This document shows, in pieces, positions 11,796-62,234 of a stretch of DNA of 64,000 nucleotides. The translations under genes were made by a program, and so were the position numbers. The stretch is taken from NCBI RefSeq assembly GCF_014202505.1, contig NZ_JACHGW010000002.1:186001-250000 (forward strand). Direction: 5' to 3'. The first letter of the stretch is position 1; each line of letters opens with the position of its first letter. The notes below the pieces were generated by a model, which did not search any database, was not told where the DNA came from, and saw nothing but the letters and a program-made list of their open reading frames with translations. The DNA comes from Armatimonas rosea. GTDB taxonomy: Bacteria; Armatimonadota; Armatimonadia; Armatimonadales; Armatimonadaceae.

Positions 11796-12181
11796 AGTCT
11801 ACCGAGAAGCTCAGTCGCCGCGAGCGGCAGTTCATGGACATTATCTGGGAGCGTGGGCAGGCCAGTGTCGCGGAGGTGCTGGAGGCGCTCCCCGATCCCC
11901 CCGGCTACAACACGGTCCGCGCCCTGCTCGGGGTTTTAGAGAGAAAAGGACACCTCACGCACACCGAGGAAGACGGTCGCTATGTCTACCTGCCGGTCGC
12001 GCCGGCCCATGCGGTCGCCAAGACCGCGCTCGAGCGGGTGGTCACCACGTTCTTTGGCGGCTCGATCGAGCGCACGGTGATGACCCTGCTCCAGTCCCGC
12101 GAGCGCCACCTCAGCGACGACGAGCTCACGCGGCTCTCCGCCCTGATTGCTGAGGCGAAAGAGAGCGAGAAAGCGCCATGA
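11792..12181 (+). CDS. BlaI/MecI/CopY-family winged-helix repressor
   Basis: This 129-residue protein has the family layout. The N-terminal winged helix includes LSRRERQFMDIIWERGQASV (about 6-25), VLEALPDPPGYNTVRALLGV (about 28-47) and LERKGHLTHTEEDGRYVYLP (about 48-67). A helical dimerisation end follows. Members repress their own operon and are cleaved when the partner M56 membrane sensor is activated. The next gene overlaps by four bases and is such an M56 protein. Regulation is likely through the dyad over its -10 box. The natural ligand or target genes outside this operon are not visible, and no beta-lactamase is present nearby. Confidence 0.92.
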   Translation: MQSTEKLSRRERQFMDIIWERGQASVAEVLEALPDPPGYNTVRALLGVLERKGHLTHTEEDGRYVYLPVAPAHAVAKTALERVVTTFFGGSIERTVMTLLQSRERHLSDDELTRLSALIAEAKESEKAP

Positions 12182-12984
12182 GCCCCGCGCTGGAGCTGGT
12201 TCTCAAGGCCACGGTCTTGCTGGCACTAGCGCTCTTGTTGGAGGCCGTTGCCCTGCGCCGCGCCTCAGGCAAGCTCCGCCACGGGGTCTGGTGCGCCGCG
12301 CTCGCCGCCCTAGCGCTCATGCCCCTCACGCTCTTTCTACCCCCACTCCTCGCCGTGCCTGTGAGTACCCCAAGTCCCGCGTTGCCCACTTCCCCCCTAA
12401 CCCCCGCAGAGCGGGGGGACAAATCGGAAGGATCTGCTTGGATTCCCCCGCTTGCGGGGGCTAGGGGGCGGGCGGGGGTTAGGGGGGAAGGAATTGACTG
12501 GCAACGTACCCTCCTCCTCTGCTACGCCCTCGGTGTGGGTGGCCTCTTGCTACGCTTGCTGCTCGACCGTGCGGCTCTCTTCTCCCTGGCCCGCCGCGCC
12601 ACTCGTGCTAGCACCACGCTCTTTCCCTGCGCCTTTCCGGTTCACCTGAGCCCCGCCGTCCCGACGCCGCTAGCGGCTGGCGGCCGCACCGGGGTGCTCC
12701 TCCCCGAGAGCGCCACGCAGTGGGACGACGAGCGCCGCCACGTGATCCTGCTCCACGAAGCCGCCCACCTGCGCCGCCGGGACCACATCACGCTCCCCCT
12801 CGCGCTGGGCCTGCAAGCCGCCTGGTGGTTCCACCCGCTGGCCTGGCTCGCCCTCACCCGCTTCCGCGCCGCCGCTGAAGCCGCCTGCGACGAAGCCGTG
12901 GTCGCCGCGGGAGTCAGCCCCGCCACCTACGCCGAGCATCTCTTAGAAGCCGCAAAAACTCTCAAGCTGGAGGTCGCCAAGTGA
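12178..12984 (+). CDS. M56 (BlaR1/MecR1-type) membrane peptidase, C-terminally short
   Basis: This is the partner sensor-protease of the BlaI-type repressor. It has 268 residues, with hydrophobic segments at about 7-25, 36-60 and 110-128. The zinc motif is HEAAH (H193, E194, H197), followed by WWFHPLAWLAL and the family CDEAV motif. The protein stops soon after, with no sensor domain. Sequence resembling the usual continuation (LE.RLR.IL) begins in the next ORF, which overlaps this stop by four bases. Residues about 71-104 are encoded by a palindromic repeat element (12389-12490) and contain SPLTPAERGDKSEG. They sit in a loop between membrane helices. I infer a split or shortened sensor that still has an intact active site. 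Confidence 0.85.
   Translation: MSPALELVLKATVLLALALLLEAVALRRASGKLRHGVWCAALAALALMPLTLFLPPLLAVPVSTPSPALPTSPLTPAERGDKSEGSAWIPPLAGARGRAGVRGEGIDWQRTLLLCYALGVGGLLLRLLLDRAALFSLARRATRASTTLFPCAFPVHLSPAVPTPLAAGGRTGVLLPESATQWDDERRHVILLHEAAHLRRRDHITLPLALGLQAAWWFHPLAWLALTRFRAAAEAACDEAVVAAGVSPATYAEHLLEAAKTLKLEVAK
12389..12490. repeat. Palindromic element A, copy 1 (inside M56 gene)
   Basis: Perfect 19-bp inverted arms, CTTCCCCCCTAACCCCCGC at 12389-12407 and its complement at 12472-12490, enclose 64 bases. An inner hairpin lies at 12445-12460. The element is read through in frame with no stop. Its left about 45 bases are nearly identical to copy 2 (28254-28334, read on the minus strand), and both copies use the same reading frame. 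Confidence 0.9.
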
Positions 12985-23704: not shown

Positions 23705-23854
23705 GCCATCTCCCCGCGCCTTAGCGCGCGACCCTCTTCTCCTGGTCACTCGTACCTCGTTGGGAAGAGGGTTACCCGGAAGCCTCTCTTCCCGCGAGGC
23801 ACGAGCAGATAGGGGAAGAGAGGTGCCTGAGCTGTGCGAAGGCGGAGAGATGGC
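23705..23854. repeat. Palindromic element E, intergenic, forms the leader of the next gene
   Basis: Imperfect outer arms (23705-23725 with 23836-23854) enclose two perfect inner hairpins, 23731-23739 with 23764-23772 and 23783-23793 with 23813-23823. The predicted fold is a branched cruciform. The ribosome-binding GGAGAG of the gene at 23858 lies in the right arm, so folding could hide it. Confidence 0.75.
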
Positions 23855-26997: not shown

Positions 26998-28455
26998 CTA
27001 CGCCAGGATGCTCTTGATGACCTGCGCGCCCTCAACTCCGGTGAGCTTGGCATCGAGCCCCTGGAACTTGTAGGTAAAGGCCTCGTGGTTGATCCCGAGC
27101 TGGTGGAGCATGGTCGCGTGGAGGTCGTGGACCGTCGTGATATTCTCGACCGCGGCGTAGCCCAGCTCATCGGAGGCTCCGTGCACCATTCCCCCATGAA
27201 TCCCCGCGCCCGCCAGCCAGACCGTCATGGCCTTGTTGTGGTGGTCGCGCCCATTGCCCTGCGACATCGGGGTGCGCCCAAACTCTCCCGCCCACACGAT
27301 GAGGGTATCGTCGAGCATCCCGCGCCGCTTCAAGTCCGTGATCAGCGCCATGCACGCCCGGTCGATCTCCTTGGCCTTGAGGGTCACACCGTTTTTAATA
27401 TCGCCGTGGTGGTCCCAGTCCTTGTGGTAGAGCTGGATAAAGCGCACGCCCTTCTCCGCCAGCCGCCGCGCTAGCAGGCAGTTGCTGGCAAAGCTACCAT
27501 CGCCGGGCTGGCACCCGTAGAGCTCCAGGGTCTCTTTTTTCTCCTGGGAGATGTCCATTAAGTCCGGCACCGACGCCTGCATCTGAAAGGCTAGCTCGTA
27601 CTGCGCGATTCTTGTGGCGATCTCGGGATCGTCCACGAGGGAGTTGTACTCTTTATTGAGCGCATTGATCGCCGCGATATCGGTTCCTTGCCGCCCACGT
27701 GTCACACCGCCCGGATTAGTCAGGTAGAGCACTGGGTCGCCCTTGCTACGCAACTGGACGCCTTGGTACTTGCTCGGCAGAAAGCCACTGCTCCACTGGC
27801 GTGCCGCGATCGGCTGGTTCTGCCCGCCCTGGCCCAGCGAGGTCAGCACGACAAACCCCGGCAGGTCCTTGGCAAGGCTTCCCAGGCCATAGGTAATCCA
27901 CGAGCCCATGCTCGGCCTGCCTGCGATCTGCGAGCCCGTGTTCATGAACATGTGCGCGGGGTCGTGGTTGATCGCATCGGTGGTCATCGAGCGGATAAAG
28001 CAGATCTCGTCGATCACCGAGCCGATTTGGGGGAAGAGCCCACAGATCTCGATCTGGTTTTTCCCAAACTTCTCAAACGGGAGCTGTGGCCCAAAACAGG
28101 TGAGCTTCTGCCCCTGGAGCTGCGCGATCTGCTGGCCCTTGGTCATGCTCTCGGGCATGGGCTGGCCGTTCATCTGCGCGAGCTTGGGCTTGGGGTCGAA
28201 GGTCTCTAGGTGCGACGGTCCCCCCGCCATGCTGAGCCAGATCACGCGCTTGGCCCCCCTAACCCCCGCCCGGCGGGGGGAATATAAGGAATCTCCTTCA
28301 GATTTGTCCCCCCGCTCGGCGGGGGTTAGGGGGGAAGCCTTCGCTTCTAGCGATGCGAGCGCCAGTGCGCCAAGACCCTGGGTGGCCTTGCCTAGCAGTG
28401 CCCGGCGGGTGAGCTGCTGTGCGCGGAATTGCTTGAGTTCGTCTTCCGTTGTCAT
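26998..28455 (-). CDS. DUF1501 protein (sulfatase-like, Tat-type signal)
   Basis: This 485-residue protein starts at 28455, where ATGA overlaps the stop of the DUF1549/DUF1553 gene. A Tat-like signal (LTRRALLGKATQGLGALALA) spans about 15-34. DUF1501 motifs follow: VIWLSMAGGPSHLETFDPKP, FIRSMTTDAINHDPAHMFMNTG, LDDTLIVWAGEFGRTPMSQG and GRDHHNKAMTVWLAGAG. The family is related to alkaline-phosphatase-fold sulfatases and is almost always paired with DUF1549/DUF1553 cytochromes. Residues about 41-67 are encoded by palindromic element A copy 2 (SPLTPAERGDKSEG), inserted just after the signal peptide, where it should not disturb the fold. Confidence 0.92.
   Translation of the reverse strand: MTTEDELKQFRAQQLTRRALLGKATQGLGALALASLEAKASPLTPAERGDKSEGDSLYSPRRAGVRGAKRVIWLSMAGGPSHLETFDPKPKLAQMNGQPMPESMTKGQQIAQLQGQKLTCFGPQLPFEKFGKNQIEICGLFPQIGSVIDEICFIRSMTTDAINHDPAHMFMNTGSQIAGRPSMGSWITYGLGSLAKDLPGFVVLTSLGQGGQNQPIAARQWSSGFLPSKYQGVQLRSKGDPVLYLTNPGGVTRGRQGTDIAAINALNKEYNSLVDDPEIATRIAQYELAFQMQASVPDLMDISQEKKETLELYGCQPGDGSFASNCLLARRLAEKGVRFIQLYHKDWDHHGDIKNGVTLKAKEIDRACMALITDLKRRGMLDDTLIVWAGEFGRTPMSQGNGRDHHNKAMTVWLAGAGIHGGMVHGASDELGYAAVENITTVHDLHATMLHQLGINHEAFTYKFQGLDAKLTGVEGAQVIKSILA
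28254..28334. repeat. Palindromic element A, copy 2 (inside DUF1501 gene)
   Basis: Perfect 16-bp arms at 28254-28269 and 28319-28334. Read on the minus strand, the first about 43 bases match copy 1 at 12389 with only one or two differences. The same frame encodes SPLTPAERGDKSEG in an unrelated protein. The two copies differ in the middle and in length (81 against about 100 bases). Confidence 0.9.
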
Positions 28456-31421
28456 GGTCGTGTTATGGTCTCGTGGAGGTTGAGGAGCACGCGGGCGACA
28501 TGGGTCCAGGCCGCGAGCTCGGGCTTGTCGAGGTTGGTGGGGAGCGGGGCGTAGCCGGTCTTGAGGAGCGCATCGGAGGCGGCTTGGTCGGCCTTGTACC
28601 CGGCGAGCTGCTGGCTGTAGACCGCAAGCAGGGTCTTCTGCTCGCTTGCTGTGGGGTTGCGCTGGAGCGCTTGCTGAAACGCCCAGGTGAGCTTCTGCTC
28701 CGGCGTGCCGCTGGCCTGGGTCAGGATCCCCACCCCAAAGGCGCGTGCGGCCTCGACATAGGTCGGGTCGTTGAGGAGCACCAGGGCCTGCTGGGGGATA
28801 TTGGAGCGGTTGCGCTCGGCGGTGCACTCCTCGCGGCTGGGGGCATCGAAGGCCAGGAGCGACGGGTGTAAGAAGCTGCGCTGCCACCAGGTGTAGAGCC
28901 CGCGCCGGTACTGACTCTCGCCCTTATCGGCGGTCCAGTCGCGCACGGGGAAGTTCAGGTTCTCCCAGTAGCGCTCCGGCTGGTAAGGCTTGACCGACGG
29001 CCCCCCGAGCTTGAGGGAGAGCAGCCCGGAGATAGCGAGGGCGTTGTCGCGCACCTCCTCGGCCTCCAGACGGAAGCGGCTCTGGCGGGCGTACTCACGG
29101 TTGTAGGGATCGGCGGCAAGGAGTGCCTTGCTTGCCGTTGAGGTTTGCTTGTAGGTATTGCTATTTACCATCAATCGCACTAGGTGCTTCACGTCCCAGC
29201 CACTGTCCACAAACTCACAGGCTAGCCAGTCCAGTAGCGCCGGGTTGGTGGGCGGCTCCCCCTGCGCGCCCAGGTCTTCGAGCACCTTGCTAATGCCGTT
29301 GCCAAAGAACTGCTTCCAGAAGCGATTCACCACCGTCCGCGCCGTCAGCGGGTTCTCCCGAGAGACCAGCCAGTTGGCAAGCTCGAGGCGTGATTGCCCC
29401 AGGCTCAACCTCTCCCCAACCCCTCTCCCGGGCGCTCCTTCGTCGCTGGGAAAGGGGCTATCTAATCTCGGGCCCCCTCCTTTCCCAGTGAGGGACGAAC
29501 GCCCGGGAGAGGAGGGCTGGGGAGGAGAGGTTAAAAACGCCGGAATCGCCGCCGTGACCACCTCGCCGGTCTCGTTGAGAAAGTCGCCGCGGGGGAGAAT
29601 GCGCACCGTGCGTGGTTTGGTGTTTTGGACGGTTACCAGGCAGCGCCCGATACCGGCCTCATAGTCCGACTTCGCTTTGCGTGCATCGGCGAGGTCTTTC
29701 TTGAGCGTCTCCGGCACCTCGGTTCCCGTCAGGGCGGTGAGGCGGAACTTACCCAGGTTGTGGTTCGTGCCATGGTTCTGCACCAAGGTAATGCGGAGCG
29801 TCTCCCCATCAGTCAGCGTGAGTGGCTCGGCGAGGGTGGCGACCAGCTCGTGGGGCTTGCCGGCATCGGGGAGGATCGCCCAGCCGAAGCTATCGGGGGT
29901 GAGGGCAGACGCGGCGCTCCAGCGCTTGTCGGGGTGGGCCTCGGCAAACGAGGCCTGCTCAATCGATGCCTGCGCCTTGGAGAAAGTTAGCTTTTGCGGC
30001 TCCGCACCCGGCTTGAGGCGCTCTGCGACAAGCTCACTAAGGACAAAGTTTCCGTTGCCCGCGCGGCCGGGGCCACGTGCCGGTAGCGACGGATCGGGGA
30101 GGACTTCGAGCCGCACCCCCGTGAGTGTCCCCGAGGCCGCCAGCTCCAGTGTGTAGGTGTTCTTGTCCGGGTTGGGGCCGCTGGCAAGGACCGCATTATC
30201 GGGCTGTACGGTCAATACGGTGCCACCGAGCGCCACGGATTTGACGGGCTTGAGCGGCCTCCAGATCGCCTCGTAGCGCCTCTGAAGCTCCGTGACACGC
30301 GCCTCGCGGCTCGCCAGCTCACGGGCTTGCTCGGGCGTGGGAACCAGCATCCCCGGCTCGCGGGCGGCGATAATCCCCTCCTCGATATCGGCAAAGTAGG
30401 CCCCGAGGCGGAAGAAGTCCTTTTGCGTGATCGGGTCGAACTTATGGTCGTGGCAGTTGGCGCAGCCCGTTGTCTGCCCCAGCCAGACCGTCCCCACGGC
30501 CCGCACCCGGTCGGTGAGATAGCGCGCCTCGTAGTCCTTGGCCTGCGCGCCTCCCTCCTCCGTGGTGAGGAGTAGCCGGTTAAACGCCGACCCGACTCGG
30601 GTCTCCTGGTTGGCATCGGGGAGCAAGTCGCCGGCGAGCTGCTCGCGGGTGAACCGATCGAAGCGCTTGTTGGTGTTGAAGGCACTGATCACATAGTCTC
30701 GGTAGGGCCAGATATTGCGCGGGGTGTCGCTATGATAGCCGATGGTATCGGCAAAGCGGGTCACGTCCAGCCAGCTCTGGGCCATGCGCTCGCCGTAGTG
30801 GGGGCTTGCCAGCAGCCGCTCGACCAGCTTCGCGTAGGCATCGGGCGCTTTATCACTGACAAAGGCGGCCACTTCCTGCGGCGACGGCGGCAGGCCCAGC
30901 AGGTCGAAGCTCAGGCGGCGGATCAGTGTCCGGCGGTCCGCGGTGGGCGACGGCTTGAGGCCGCGCTCCGCGAGGCGCTTCTGCACCAGAAAGTCAATCG
31001 CATTCTTGCCCGCGGGGATCGCCGGCTTGACAGGCATTTCGTAGGCCCAGTGCTTCTGGTACTTAGCCCCCTCCCCGATCCAGCGCATCAGGAGCTGTTT
31101 CTGCGCCGCTGTGAGCTTCTTGTGGTAGTCCGCGGGTGGCATCGCGCCGCTACGCACCTCCTGCACCAGCGCACTCGCCAGGATATCGCCCGGCACGACC
31201 GCTCGGTTTGGCCCATCGAGCCGTAGATTGGCCTGGCGCTTGTTCTTATCCGGGCCGTGGCAGGCAAAGCAGTTGTCGGAGAGGATCGGGCGAATGTCCC
31301 GGTTGAAGACAATTGCCCCCCCAGCCCTCGTCGAATGGGGGAGAGGCGGCGGCGTTGCCAGGCTCATCCCAATACACACAGCGCTAAGGAGCGCACACGA
31401 AGCAAGTCTTAGAGCGTTCAT
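28452..31421 (-). CDS. PSCyt1/DUF1549/DUF1553 cytochrome-domain protein
   Basis: This 989-residue exported protein has a signal peptide (about 1-22), then a Planctomycete-type cytochrome c domain with C51-F-A-C54-H55 (ILSDNCFACHGPDKN). The DUF1549 domain (about 115-325) contains SWLDVTRFADTIGYHSD and a second haem-like CANCH (C320, C323, H324). The DUF1553 domain (about 680-960) has NRFWKQFFGNGI and SFLHPSLLAFDAPSREECTA. The start at 31421 is chosen because earlier codons run into repeat D1. Residues about 630-671 are encoded by palindromic element B in the linker before DUF1553. The DUF1501 gene is coupled downstream. The pair is thought to act in extracytoplasmic polysaccharide or sulfated-compound metabolism. 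Confidence 0.92.
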   Translation of the reverse strand: MNALRLASCALLSAVCIGMSLATPPPLPHSTRAGGAIVFNRDIRPILSDNCFACHGPDKNKRQANLRLDGPNRAVVPGDILASALVQEVRSGAMPPADYHKKLTAAQKQLLMRWIGEGAKYQKHWAYEMPVKPAIPAGKNAIDFLVQKRLAERGLKPSPTADRRTLIRRLSFDLLGLPPSPQEVAAFVSDKAPDAYAKLVERLLASPHYGERMAQSWLDVTRFADTIGYHSDTPRNIWPYRDYVISAFNTNKRFDRFTREQLAGDLLPDANQETRVGSAFNRLLLTTEEGGAQAKDYEARYLTDRVRAVGTVWLGQTTGCANCHDHKFDPITQKDFFRLGAYFADIEEGIIAAREPGMLVPTPEQARELASREARVTELQRRYEAIWRPLKPVKSVALGGTVLTVQPDNAVLASGPNPDKNTYTLELAASGTLTGVRLEVLPDPSLPARGPGRAGNGNFVLSELVAERLKPGAEPQKLTFSKAQASIEQASFAEAHPDKRWSAASALTPDSFGWAILPDAGKPHELVATLAEPLTLTDGETLRITLVQNHGTNHNLGKFRLTALTGTEVPETLKKDLADARKAKSDYEAGIGRCLVTVQNTKPRTVRILPRGDFLNETGEVVTAAIPAFLTSPPQPSSPGRSSLTGKGGGPRLDSPFPSDEGAPGRGVGERLSLGQSRLELANWLVSRENPLTARTVVNRFWKQFFGNGISKVLEDLGAQGEPPTNPALLDWLACEFVDSGWDVKHLVRLMVNSNTYKQTSTASKALLAADPYNREYARQSRFRLEAEEVRDNALAISGLLSLKLGGPSVKPYQPERYWENLNFPVRDWTADKGESQYRRGLYTWWQRSFLHPSLLAFDAPSREECTAERNRSNIPQQALVLLNDPTYVEAARAFGVGILTQASGTPEQKLTWAFQQALQRNPTASEQKTLLAVYSQQLAGYKADQAASDALLKTGYAPLPTNLDKPELAAWTHVARVLLNLHETITRP
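29407..29532. repeat. Palindromic element B (inside DUF1549/DUF1553 gene)
   Basis: Imperfect outer arms (29407-29434 with about 29500-29532) and an inner pair around CTGGGAAAGG and CCTTTCCCAG. It is read in frame without a stop and encodes a Pro/Ser/Gly-rich linker containing SPPQPSSPGRSS. The sequence differs from family A, but the design is the same. Confidence 0.75.
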
Positions 31422-31466
31422 GATGATTACGGCTACACTTCGACACTGTTGCGGGTTTCCCCTTTG

Positions 31467-31581
31467 CGGGCATTGGAAATACCCGCCTGAGGGAAGGGAG
31501 CATCCCGAGGACGCGCAGAAAGAAGCGCTCTCCGCGCCCACGGGGCGCTCCCTCTCCCCAGCCGGGTATTTCCAATGCCCG
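31467..31581. repeat. Palindromic element D, copy 1 (intergenic)
   Basis: Perfect 19-bp arms, CGGGCATTGGAAATACCCG at 31467-31485 and its complement at 31563-31581, enclose 77 bases with an inner GGGAGC / GCTCCC pair. It lies between the cytochrome gene start and the stop of the TPR-like gene. A half copy lies at 25609. Confidence 0.85.
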
Positions 31582-37506: not shown

Positions 37507-38822
37507 GACGTAGGTTTACGGCTTGCGTTGCGCCTTTGTTCCCAAGCCAGCCACAGCCAGAGACCAAGCGCGACGAGCAAGTACTCCACTAAGGCGACAA
37601 GCTGAATGCGGCGCTCGGCTTGGTAGGACCAGAGGTCGGGGTACTGGCAGGTGCTCGTGGGTGGGGTGAAGAGGGGCAATGGGGAGCTACCCGTGCTGGG
37701 AAAGTCCGGGAGGAGCCAGAAAATGCGGTGTGAGAGGAGCTGAAGCGCGACCAAGGCGATGAGAAAGCCACGGGGGAGCGCGTGTTTCTCCAAGATCACC
37801 CCGATCAGTGCGTAGACTACCGGCATCGCCCAGTAGACGATGCGCTCCGTGTCCGAGCCACCCACCCAGCCCAGCACGAGAAAGATCCCCAGTGTCCACG
37901 CGAGCACGGGTTGCCCCTTGAGCCACGCTCCTGCCGTGCGCCAGAAGAAGATCGGGAGCACGAGTGCGGGGCCAAAGGCGATAAAGAGGCCGTGCAGATA
38001 GACTGGAAGCGGCTTATTGTAGGCCCACTGCCCGACGGTCCGCGCAAAGCTGTAGCTATCGCTCTGGTGTGCCAGCAGATGGGTCGCGACAATCCCCAGC
38101 CCCCCCGCCAAGAGCGGCAACCAAGCCCGCCCCCGGCTCGCCAGGAGCAGCGCCAGAGGCACCACCACCACACTCTCCCGAAACAGCCCCCCCACAAAGC
38201 AGAGCCCCACAAACCACCAGCTCTGCACTCCCCCGTACACTCCCCCATACACTCCCCCGCCTCGTCCCTCGGCACCCCCTCTCCTCCCGCGGAACGCGGA
38301 ACCAGAGGGAGAGGGGGTCGCAGGGGCCCCACTCGTGGGGTATGCGGGGGGAGTGCCAGTGCCCCAAGGGAGTGCCAACAATCCCCCCAGCAAGAACACG
38401 AAGAGCCACGGGTCGGTGTAGGCGGCGTAGTGCGCGGTGAACCGAAGCGGCGCGTGCCACTGCGTGAGAGAGCCCACCACCAGCGCCAGGCGCAGCCACG
38501 AGCTCGCCACGAAGCGCCGTAGCCAGAACGTCAGCAATACAGTTGATAGTAGGCAGCCGATAAGATTGACGAGCTTGAAGCCGAGCAGGAGCTTGCCGGG
38601 AAAGAGCACCCCGACCAGCACGGGTGTCCCGAGCCGGAACGCAAAGGGACCGATGGCACGGAGTGGCTCGTGCTGAGCCACTTGCTGGGCGAGCTGGTAG
38701 TACGCAACCCCGTCCCATCCCTGGCCGTCGTGGTAGGTCAGCGGCTTCTGGAAGACGAGGCTGAGCCCCGCCACCAGCGCAAAGAGCACTAGGGCAAAAA
38801 ACAGCTCGCTTTTCTTGGTCAC
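37503..38822 (-). CDS. Polytopic membrane protein, possibly a GT-C-type glycosyltransferase
   Basis: I choose the GTG at 38822 (AAGG a few bases upstream), giving 439 residues; the longer frame would run into the divergent ilvA gene. About ten hydrophobic helices are seen. An early acidic loop HDGQGWDGVAYYQLAQQ (about 30-46) is like the first-loop Asp motif of GT-C mannosyl- or glucosyltransferases, and AAYTDPWLFVFLLGGL follows. Identity beyond that is unclear. Residues about 165-205 lie in a loop and are encoded by palindromic repeat C and a 12-base tandem repeat (GVYGGVYGGV). The small membrane gene downstream is coupled. Confidence 0.68.
   Translation of the reverse strand: MTKKSELFFALVLFALVAGLSLVFQKPLTYHDGQGWDGVAYYQLAQQVAQHEPLRAIGPFAFRLGTPVLVGVLFPGKLLLGFKLVNLIGCLLSTVLLTFWLRRFVASSWLRLALVVGSLTQWHAPLRFTAHYAAYTDPWLFVFLLGGLLALPWGTGTPPAYPTSGAPATPSPSGSAFRGRRGGAEGRGGGVYGGVYGGVQSWWFVGLCFVGGLFRESVVVVPLALLLASRGRAWLPLLAGGLGIVATHLLAHQSDSYSFARTVGQWAYNKPLPVYLHGLFIAFGPALVLPIFFWRTAGAWLKGQPVLAWTLGIFLVLGWVGGSDTERIVYWAMPVVYALIGVILEKHALPRGFLIALVALQLLSHRIFWLLPDFPSTGSSPLPLFTPPTSTCQYPDLWSYQAERRIQLVALVEYLLVALGLWLWLAWEQRRNASRKPTS
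38226..38261. repeat. 12-bp tandem repeat, three units, in a membrane-protein gene
   Basis: Units CACTCCCCCGTA, CACTCCCCCATA and CACTCCCCCGCC encode GGVY-type repeats on the minus strand. They lie 12 bases from palindromic element C. Twelve bases keep the frame, so unit number can change without harm. Confidence 0.8.
38274..38318. repeat. Palindromic element C (inside membrane-protein gene)
   Basis: Arms ACCCCCTCTCC at 38274-38284 and its complement at 38308-38318 around a GC-rich centre. It is read in frame on the minus strand as part of a Gly/Arg/Ser-rich loop. It is the fourth palindrome in this window that lies inside a coding sequence. Confidence 0.65.
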
Positions 38823-55235: not shown

Positions 55236-55354
55236 ACGGGAGCGTCTTGCTGTCGTCGCAGGCTCCGACACAAAGGGCGCTACGCGCCCCTATGGCCGAA
55301 GACCTTCGTGTCCGAGGCACGAGGACAGCAAGACGCCCCCCTCCAACGGGGGCG
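55236..55354. repeat. Palindromic element F between PQQ genes
   Basis: Perfect 13-bp arms GCGTCTTGCTGTC (55242-55254) and its complement (55324-55336), with further pairing inside (CTCCGACAC / GTGTCCGAG) and a central 6-bp hairpin (55275-55280 with 55284-55289). Outer hairpins at 55225-55244 and 55334-55354 complete it; the right one is identical to the hairpin at 18568. Confidence 0.8.
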
Positions 55355-62174: not shown

Positions 62175-62234
62175 GCTGATTTTTATCAGATTTGGCCTTG
62201 CTCACCCGTTCTAGGGGCGGAGGAAGACAACCTG

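Follow-up and report, generated by a model that had tools for sequence, protein, structure and literature searches.

The 64,000-nt stretch of Armatimonas rosea analyzed here (the window; positions 186,001 to 250,000 of contig NZ_JACHGW010000002.1) contains two related palindromes that are translated in frame within two otherwise unrelated proteins, which poses the question of whether they are mobile elements that write peptides into proteins and, if so, what moves them. Both palindromes, designated family A, were found at the positions where a preliminary description of the window had placed them:

12178..12984, plus strand: M56 host gene, coding for a BlaR1-type peptidase of 268 aa, with the insert in the linker that precedes the peptidase domain match (aa 148-259).
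12389..12490: family A element in the M56 gene, 102 bp, comprising a CTTC lead, a full element and an extra partial right arm.
26998..28455, minus strand: DUF1501 host gene, 485 aa.
28251..28337: family A element in the DUF1501 gene, 87 bp including four terminal bases on each side, in frame and immediately past the signal sequence.

Comparison of the translations confirmed that one frame is used by both elements, giving ...SPLTPAERGDKSEGSAWIPPLAGARGRAG... in the M56 protein and ...SPLTPAERGDKSEGDSLYSPRRAGVRG... in the DUF1501 protein. This agreement is less remarkable than it appears, because at the common core lengths of 76 and 79 bp the other two frames are shut by stop codons, TAA in the left arm and TAG in the right.

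A search of the whole genome (G000; 6.33 Mb, 98 % complete) gave 87 matches to the core 14-mer CCCCCTAACCCCCG, versus one for the pattern read backwards. The copies of family A are thus not due to chance, and the objection that only two fortuitous copies might exist does not hold. Among relatives, the same 14-mer was found 69 times in the congener G001, five times in G007, a member of the same family, and not at all in the other 58. A full element contains two hairpin halves, inverted around a short and roughly palindromic linker (often GGAATCnGATTCC), according to the formula CYTC-CCCCCTAA-[CCCCCG..CGGGGG]-GACAA-linker-(inverse). Core lengths peak at 76 and 79 bp (23 copies each, n = 84), and a further CYTC common to both ends, read outwards, brings the whole lengths to 84 and 87 bp, each a multiple of three. 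The sequence of one half hardly varies (TTGTCCCCCCGCnnnGCGGGGGTTAGGGGG) and the other is variable, with TAA, TAG, CAT, CTG or CAG between its two C-tracts; nearly all copies contain CGGGGG-TTA-GGGGG in one half, and solitary halves and short mini-hairpins are also present. No consistent target-site duplication of 2–9 bp was found in 76 copies. We had considered a MITE of a DDE transposon, which was rejected for the absence from these copies of a target-site duplication of fixed length.

The halves of family A are laid out like the G/C-rich intrastrand triplex motifs, in which a hairpin is followed by a TTA or CCG loop and a third G-tract (Holder et al., 2015; PMC4666352). These motifs reach many copies per genome and are abundant in Cyanobacteria, and five cases of the TM_ECO motifs of E. 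coli are inverted pairs of unlike type (PMC4666352). A family A half likewise comprises a hairpin, a 3-nt TTA loop (type A) and a third G-tract on one strand, and its two unlike halves are inverted; however, the TM_ECO motifs are reported to be always intergenic in E. coli and not to lie beside mobility genes (PMC4666352), whereas many copies of family A are in frame in genes and the family is linked to a DUF559 gene (see below). The family is undescribed, as far as we could find, in its sequence, as had been proposed, but not in its layout, which is that of the described triplex motifs.

Gene context was examined in regions of up to 20 kb around nearly all the G000 copies and most of the G001 copies, using approximate gene calls from a simple home-made codon-usage caller; the regions were picked by the family A core 14-mer, so that all counts for other palindrome families are lower bounds. 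We placed 78 loci from G000 and 50 from G001, of which 13 and 10, respectively, are inside called genes, and the rest between genes or over gene ends. With 23 of 128 loci internal to genes, versus a coding fraction of 0.93, gene copies are strongly under-represented, and family A is mainly an extragenic repeat with a sizeable minority of copies in genes. This bears on the likeness to the Rickettsia palindromic elements (RPE) drawn in the preliminary description. As characterized in the literature (Ogata et al. 2000, 2002, in PMC6649704), RPEs are mobile palindromes inserted in frame in unrelated genes, sparing the host protein, and mainly located inside coding sequences. Family A behaves like an RPE in that it inserts in frame and the host gene stays open, but its mainly extragenic distribution brings it nearer to REP/REPIN and triplex-motif repeats. 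It is also set apart from the RPEs, by their description in that source, in belonging to another phylum, in its two triplex-type hairpins and in having a candidate nuclease partner. The enterobacterial RU repeats (Delihas 2007, PMC2759123) are, according to their abstract, also small mobile repeats with open frames that lie inside some genes, but they are longer (103-168 bp) and from another group, and the abstract mentions no linked nuclease.

In the regions retrieved from G000 and G001, about 16 proteins from 12 unrelated families contain, in frame, the peptide SPLTPAxRGDxKE....SPRRAGVRG or a close variant. Apart from the M56 protein, the carriers include four DUF1501 proteins (that of the window, its paralog in L042, a further paralog in L075 and the G001 ortholog in L101), five enzymes (cobalamin-dependent MetH, L043; PutA, L109; 2-oxoacid dehydrogenase E2, L118; aldehyde dehydrogenase, L125; and QueG, L069), a DUF1549/DUF1553 protein (L031), a PKS/NRPS (L068), a Wzi-like (L079) and a WD40 protein (L097), and bpX5 proteins in both species (L087, L112). 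Two further internal full copies, in L053 and L055, are doubtful, being in another frame or diverged. The DUF1501 family shows a very large expansion in both genomes (62 matches in G000 and 52 in G001), and several of its genes hold an internal family A copy.

Where the domains are known, the insertion sites tend towards linkers or turns. The PutA insert occupies residues 449-477, between the Pro_dh (132-437) and Aldedh (522-985) domains, the E2 insert (residues 79-107) separates the lipoyl domain (6-77) from the catalytic one (166-376), and that of MetH is at a turn of the activation domain. Among non-coding full copies, the allowed frame is open in 32 of 46 in forward and 31 of 46 in reverse orientation, and the other frames in 6 to 14. 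Since a readable frame is already open in around 70 % of the non-coding copies on either strand, the element is readable in itself and pre-fitted for tolerance in genes, which mainly filter the site and the frame. A filter for length in genes was discarded, because lengths of 3n are no commoner in genes than elsewhere (13 of 18 gene copies and 38 of 64 others; Fisher p 0.41). These data also allow us to weigh the idea that selection maintains the peptide as a useful module, serving as a flexible linker or a tag. The location of the inserts in linkers and past signal sequences, and the retention of the peptide in both species in the DUF1501 and bpX5 proteins, would agree with it, but the scarcity of gene copies relative to the coding fraction and the like distribution of length modulo 3 in coding and other copies make such selection highly improbable. 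The inserted peptide is most likely a tolerated by-product, and the insertions surviving in genes would be mostly those in linkers, loops or post-signal stretches, in the one open frame.

Orthologs lacking the insert were found in several cases. The MetH insert is missing from the G001 ortholog (92 % identical) and from four more relatives, and that of the window DUF1501 gene is missing from the ortholog in the related genus G007 (86 % identical), which dispels for this protein the concern that distant orthologs might carry the same peptide at the same place; its G001 ortholog holds an inverted insert. For the M56 gene, an empty site could not be shown, because the congener G001 has lost most of the gene: it is gone after ca. 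30 codons, although its upstream repressor-type neighbor is retained (L101:15767, contig C64), and the linker is variable among M56 paralogs and distant homologs. A palindrome of a second family lies next to the DUF1501 gene, also in frame:

28452..31541, minus strand: host gene for a PSCyt1/DUF1549-DUF1553-type protein, neighbor of the DUF1501 gene; ORF as listed, the true start may be further in.
29391..29531: palindrome of the second family, in frame in this gene (TSPPQPSSPGRSSLTGKGGG...GRGVGER).

This second insert is absent from the 90 % identical G001 ortholog, leaving an empty site, and clean absences also occur at intergenic sites. With 128 loci in the regions retrieved from two genomes, 12 unrelated protein families and insert-free orthologs, the proposal of a mobile palindrome that writes peptides into proteins was borne out, with the addition that family A does not reside mainly in genes: about four fifths of the copies sit between genes or at gene ends.

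It might be argued that the palindromes are old immobile hairpins, such as terminators or mRNA ends, that were spread only by recombination and reached genes by fusion or read-through. Most copies are indeed between genes, some sites are common to both species, with the element in the same or in inverted orientation, and the DUF1501 paralogs share an insert site; however, clean empty sites exist in otherwise ca. 90 % identical genes (MetH and DUF1553), and inserts deep in PutA, E2, MetH and QueG cannot stem from read-through, so that we give this explanation very little credence. Simple insertion does not account for everything either. At several orthologous sites, PutA among them, family A is present in one species and a different palindrome in the other (L042:10012 versus L192, L109:9939 versus L358, L039:7772 versus L107, and L126:10001 versus L085), sometimes in frame in both. 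These swaps suggest hot spots or palindrome-for-palindrome replacement, and count against a simple insertion model, which does not predict them.

A candidate for the mobilizing enzyme, which the preliminary description had not noticed, is found between two halves of family A. A small gene is bracketed by two single inverted halves in both G000 (C2:614.5 kb) and G001 (C69), and the two units occupy the same place beside argG, but in inverted orientation. A DUF559-type gene bracketed by similar arms is also present in G007 (C55), so that this arrangement occurs in the three genomes that hold family A. The bracketed gene codes for a DUF559 protein (PF04480, E-value 1.1e-30). A profile of 26 DUF559 proteins matched the solved structures 3hrl (1.2e-34) and 3r3p, the homing endonuclease I-Bth0305I (1.9e-4), and the model of the G000 protein (mean pLDDT 90.3) matched 3hrl (5e-9), 3r3p (3e-4) and, weakly, Vsr (1vsr; 0.055); the 26 proteins, when aligned, were too divergent to be scanned for a pattern. 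The partner is thus predicted to have a Vsr-type fold, the same catalytic fold as I-Bth0305I (3r3p), Vsr (1vsr) and Caulobacter VsrA, a protein with a DUF559 domain that is described in passages of PMC12907096 as a Vsr-like, DNA-damage-induced nuclease with a proposed role in mismatch repair. I-Bth0305I differs in being the protein of a mobile intron, and those passages tie VsrA to no palindromes. The bracketing of a DUF559 nuclease gene by halves of a palindromic repeat is reported here as new; of the papers found to mention DUF559, none connects it with palindromic repeats in its title or abstract, and this novelty is provisional, subscription papers being outside the search.

The G000 copy of the DUF559 gene appears intact, and that of G001 is degenerate and lacks the N-terminal part. 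In G001 (C69; L104:5920-7596), the degenerate frame runs without a stop through the right arm into the gene for argininosuccinate synthase, possibly a gene fusion made by the element.

Links between palindromes and nuclease genes were also apparent for the rest of the window, when its palindromes were matched against the sequences flanking 19 nuclease genes from G000 and G001. Both family A elements match the two flanks of the family A DUF559 gene (G000, C2:614k), and the second family, at 29391..29531, those of a DUF559 gene of G001 (C151). The remaining palindromes are the following:

38274..38318: hairpin of a third DUF559-linked family; the DUF559 gene at C1:1181k of G000 has flanks 98 % and 89 % identical to it over 55 bp.
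31470-31578: REPIN-like palindrome, with counterparts on both sides of a RAYT (Y1_Tnp) gene of the genome.
55242-55336: REPIN-like palindrome, with counterparts on both sides of another RAYT (Y1_Tnp) gene of the genome.
23783-23823: C/T-rich hairpin, with no match among the 19 nuclease flanks.

All six matched repeat-type palindromes of the window, therefore, fit both flanks of one nuclease gene each, either DUF559 or RAYT. The palindrome in the DUF1501 paralog of G001 matches another DUF559 gene of this genome, over 47 bp on one side and only 22 bp on the other. When the arms of the nuclease genes were used as queries, dispersed copies were found in most cases, and the only cases in which another nuclease gene was reached were the two family A genes and a single hit linking two RAYTs. 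These comparisons show that each nuclease gene has a private palindrome family of its own.

The same comparisons bear on the possibility that family A consists of ordinary REPINs moved by a RAYT, a Y1 HUH transposase. As in the REP/REPIN and RAYT systems (PMC3116915, PMC2817692, PMC8266576), family A shows inverted hairpin doublets, solitary halves, high copy number, a mainly extragenic location, no target duplication and a bracketed partner gene, and the genome contains seven Y1_Tnp matches. Nevertheless, in G000 and G001 the RAYT genes have palindromes of their own on both sides, never family A, for which a RAYT was rejected as partner. Neither the GTAG nor the CGTC tag is present at the hairpin foot of family A, whose ends are CYTC-CCCCC; moreover, its partner is a Vsr/EDxHD-type nuclease instead of a HUH transposase, and many of its copies are in frame. 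We thus regard a RAYT-driven origin as improbable.

In the main rival explanation, the palindromes are spread by other means and would be only the target of DUF559, a homing endonuclease gene that inserts itself into them. The intron homing endonuclease I-Bth0305I is the closest solved relative besides 3hrl, the DUF559 gene occupies the position of the linker between the two halves, and G000 and G001 have the DUF559 unit at one common site by argG, all of which would fit a homing gene. However, this leaves the spread of the palindromes unexplained, and does not sit well with a private, dispersed palindrome family for each nuclease, as occurs with the RAYTs; we consider it unlikely, although less so than the other alternatives. 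We favor instead, as the probable explanation, that the elements are mobile palindromes, short and non-autonomous, which depend for their movement on the DUF559 endonuclease encoded between two such halves, with host repair completing the process. Their dispersal, the existence of pairs, halves and mini forms, the empty sites, the lack of target duplication, the in-frame reading, the DUF559 bracketing and the private palindrome family of each nuclease gene are all read from the sequences; the role of DUF559 as mobilizer, its action on folded DNA and the finishing of insertion by host repair are what we infer from them. The scheme is modeled on RAYTs serving REP/REPIN palindromes and on homing endonucleases: the DUF559 protein would recognize its own folded half and then cut, and host repair would join or copy the element into a new site without target duplication. 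We know of no joining activity in DUF559 proteins, and insertion at new sites would hence need host factors. The degenerate state of the family A DUF559 gene in G001, versus 69 core matches in this genome, counts against this mobilizer model.

The association of DUF559 genes with hairpins extends beyond this genus. Defining bracketing as inverted repeats scoring >22 within 450 bp of the gene, 27 of 49 DUF559 loci from relatives were bracketed, versus 3 of 305 small control genes, including one RAYT, and 0 of 25 loci from other families; in the known palindrome-linked case, that of RAYT genes, the figure was 17 of 23. We also scanned GTDB genomes to obtain a wide sample of 70 DUF559 loci from Cyanobacteria, Chloroflexota, Planctomycetota, Armatimonadota and others. 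A first cross-phylum inverted-repeat null, with 11 of 70 loci above the 99 % level, was contaminated, because unrelated DUF559 loci have similar hairpins, and was replaced by hairpin density versus distance. Of the 70 loci, 46 had a perfect stem (≥9 bp) on each side at a distance of up to 300 bp, versus 0 of 65 control windows situated 900-1200 bp away; about a third of the sample is without two-sided hairpins, which counts against DUF559 as mobilizer. When stems of ≥9 bp with loops of ≤20 were required on both sides, only 10 of 42 Armatimonadota DUF559 loci scored, together with 1 of 25 negative loci and 1 of 16 RAYTs; this low score is due to the arms being often bulged or longer in Armatimonadota, where the inverted-repeat score is the better measure. 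Nine of ten genomes of the wide sample each have a recurring hairpin motif of this type (1 to 90 copies, versus 0 for the reversed control). Further copies of the DUF559-locus arm occur elsewhere in G016, in inverted pairs, and in G020 the exact arm pattern was found at its own locus only.

A promoter-like motif, TTTDTCAGA-N15-CCGTTNTA, is present with fixed spacing at 17 sites in the genome (reversed control 0). These are positions 62182-62213 of the window, upstream of radC, C1:1015611, C2:819907, C3:834778 and C4:312911 of G000, and 12 more. The motif precedes recA, the rpsF/ssb operon, radC, two genes for ComEA-like HhH proteins, a ComM-like gene, a few other genes, and several of the RAYT and DUF559 genes. 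Such a set resembles a competence or DNA-damage regulon, which would include the palindrome-linked nucleases, and the presence of the motif before recA, ssb, radC, com-like, RAYT and DUF559 genes suggests that the DUF559 and RAYT nucleases might be made upon DNA damage or uptake.

The link between DUF559 and palindromes may extend to E. coli. In strain K-12 MG1655, the motif TM_ECO 9 (1,351,204-1,351,239; PMC4666352) is situated 168 bp from ycjD (1,351,407-1,351,760), annotated as DUF559; the chance of such proximity is ca. 0.4 %, by simple arithmetic from 18 sites, 4.64 Mb and a window of ca. 950 bp. Gene ycjD has a triplex motif on one side only, which counts against DUF559 as mobilizer.

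Taken more broadly, DUF559 proteins might be the partner enzymes of triplex-type palindromic repeats across bacteria, a second and independent counterpart of the RAYT/REP pairs in which each nuclease would mobilize its private family. In this genus, the promoter motif common with recA, the ssb operon and competence-type genes would then point to spread during the handling of single-stranded DNA, with some copies landing in frame and lengthening proteins. We advance this wider proposition tentatively, as one whose chances are nearly balanced. In-frame mobile palindromes are best known from Rickettsia, and they are now found in another phylum and in core enzymes, together with empty-site orthologs. 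The DUF559 link provides a concrete candidate for what spreads hairpin repeats in many genomes, which may include the triplex motifs of E. coli, and by way of ycjD the question of their spread becomes testable in E. coli K-12.
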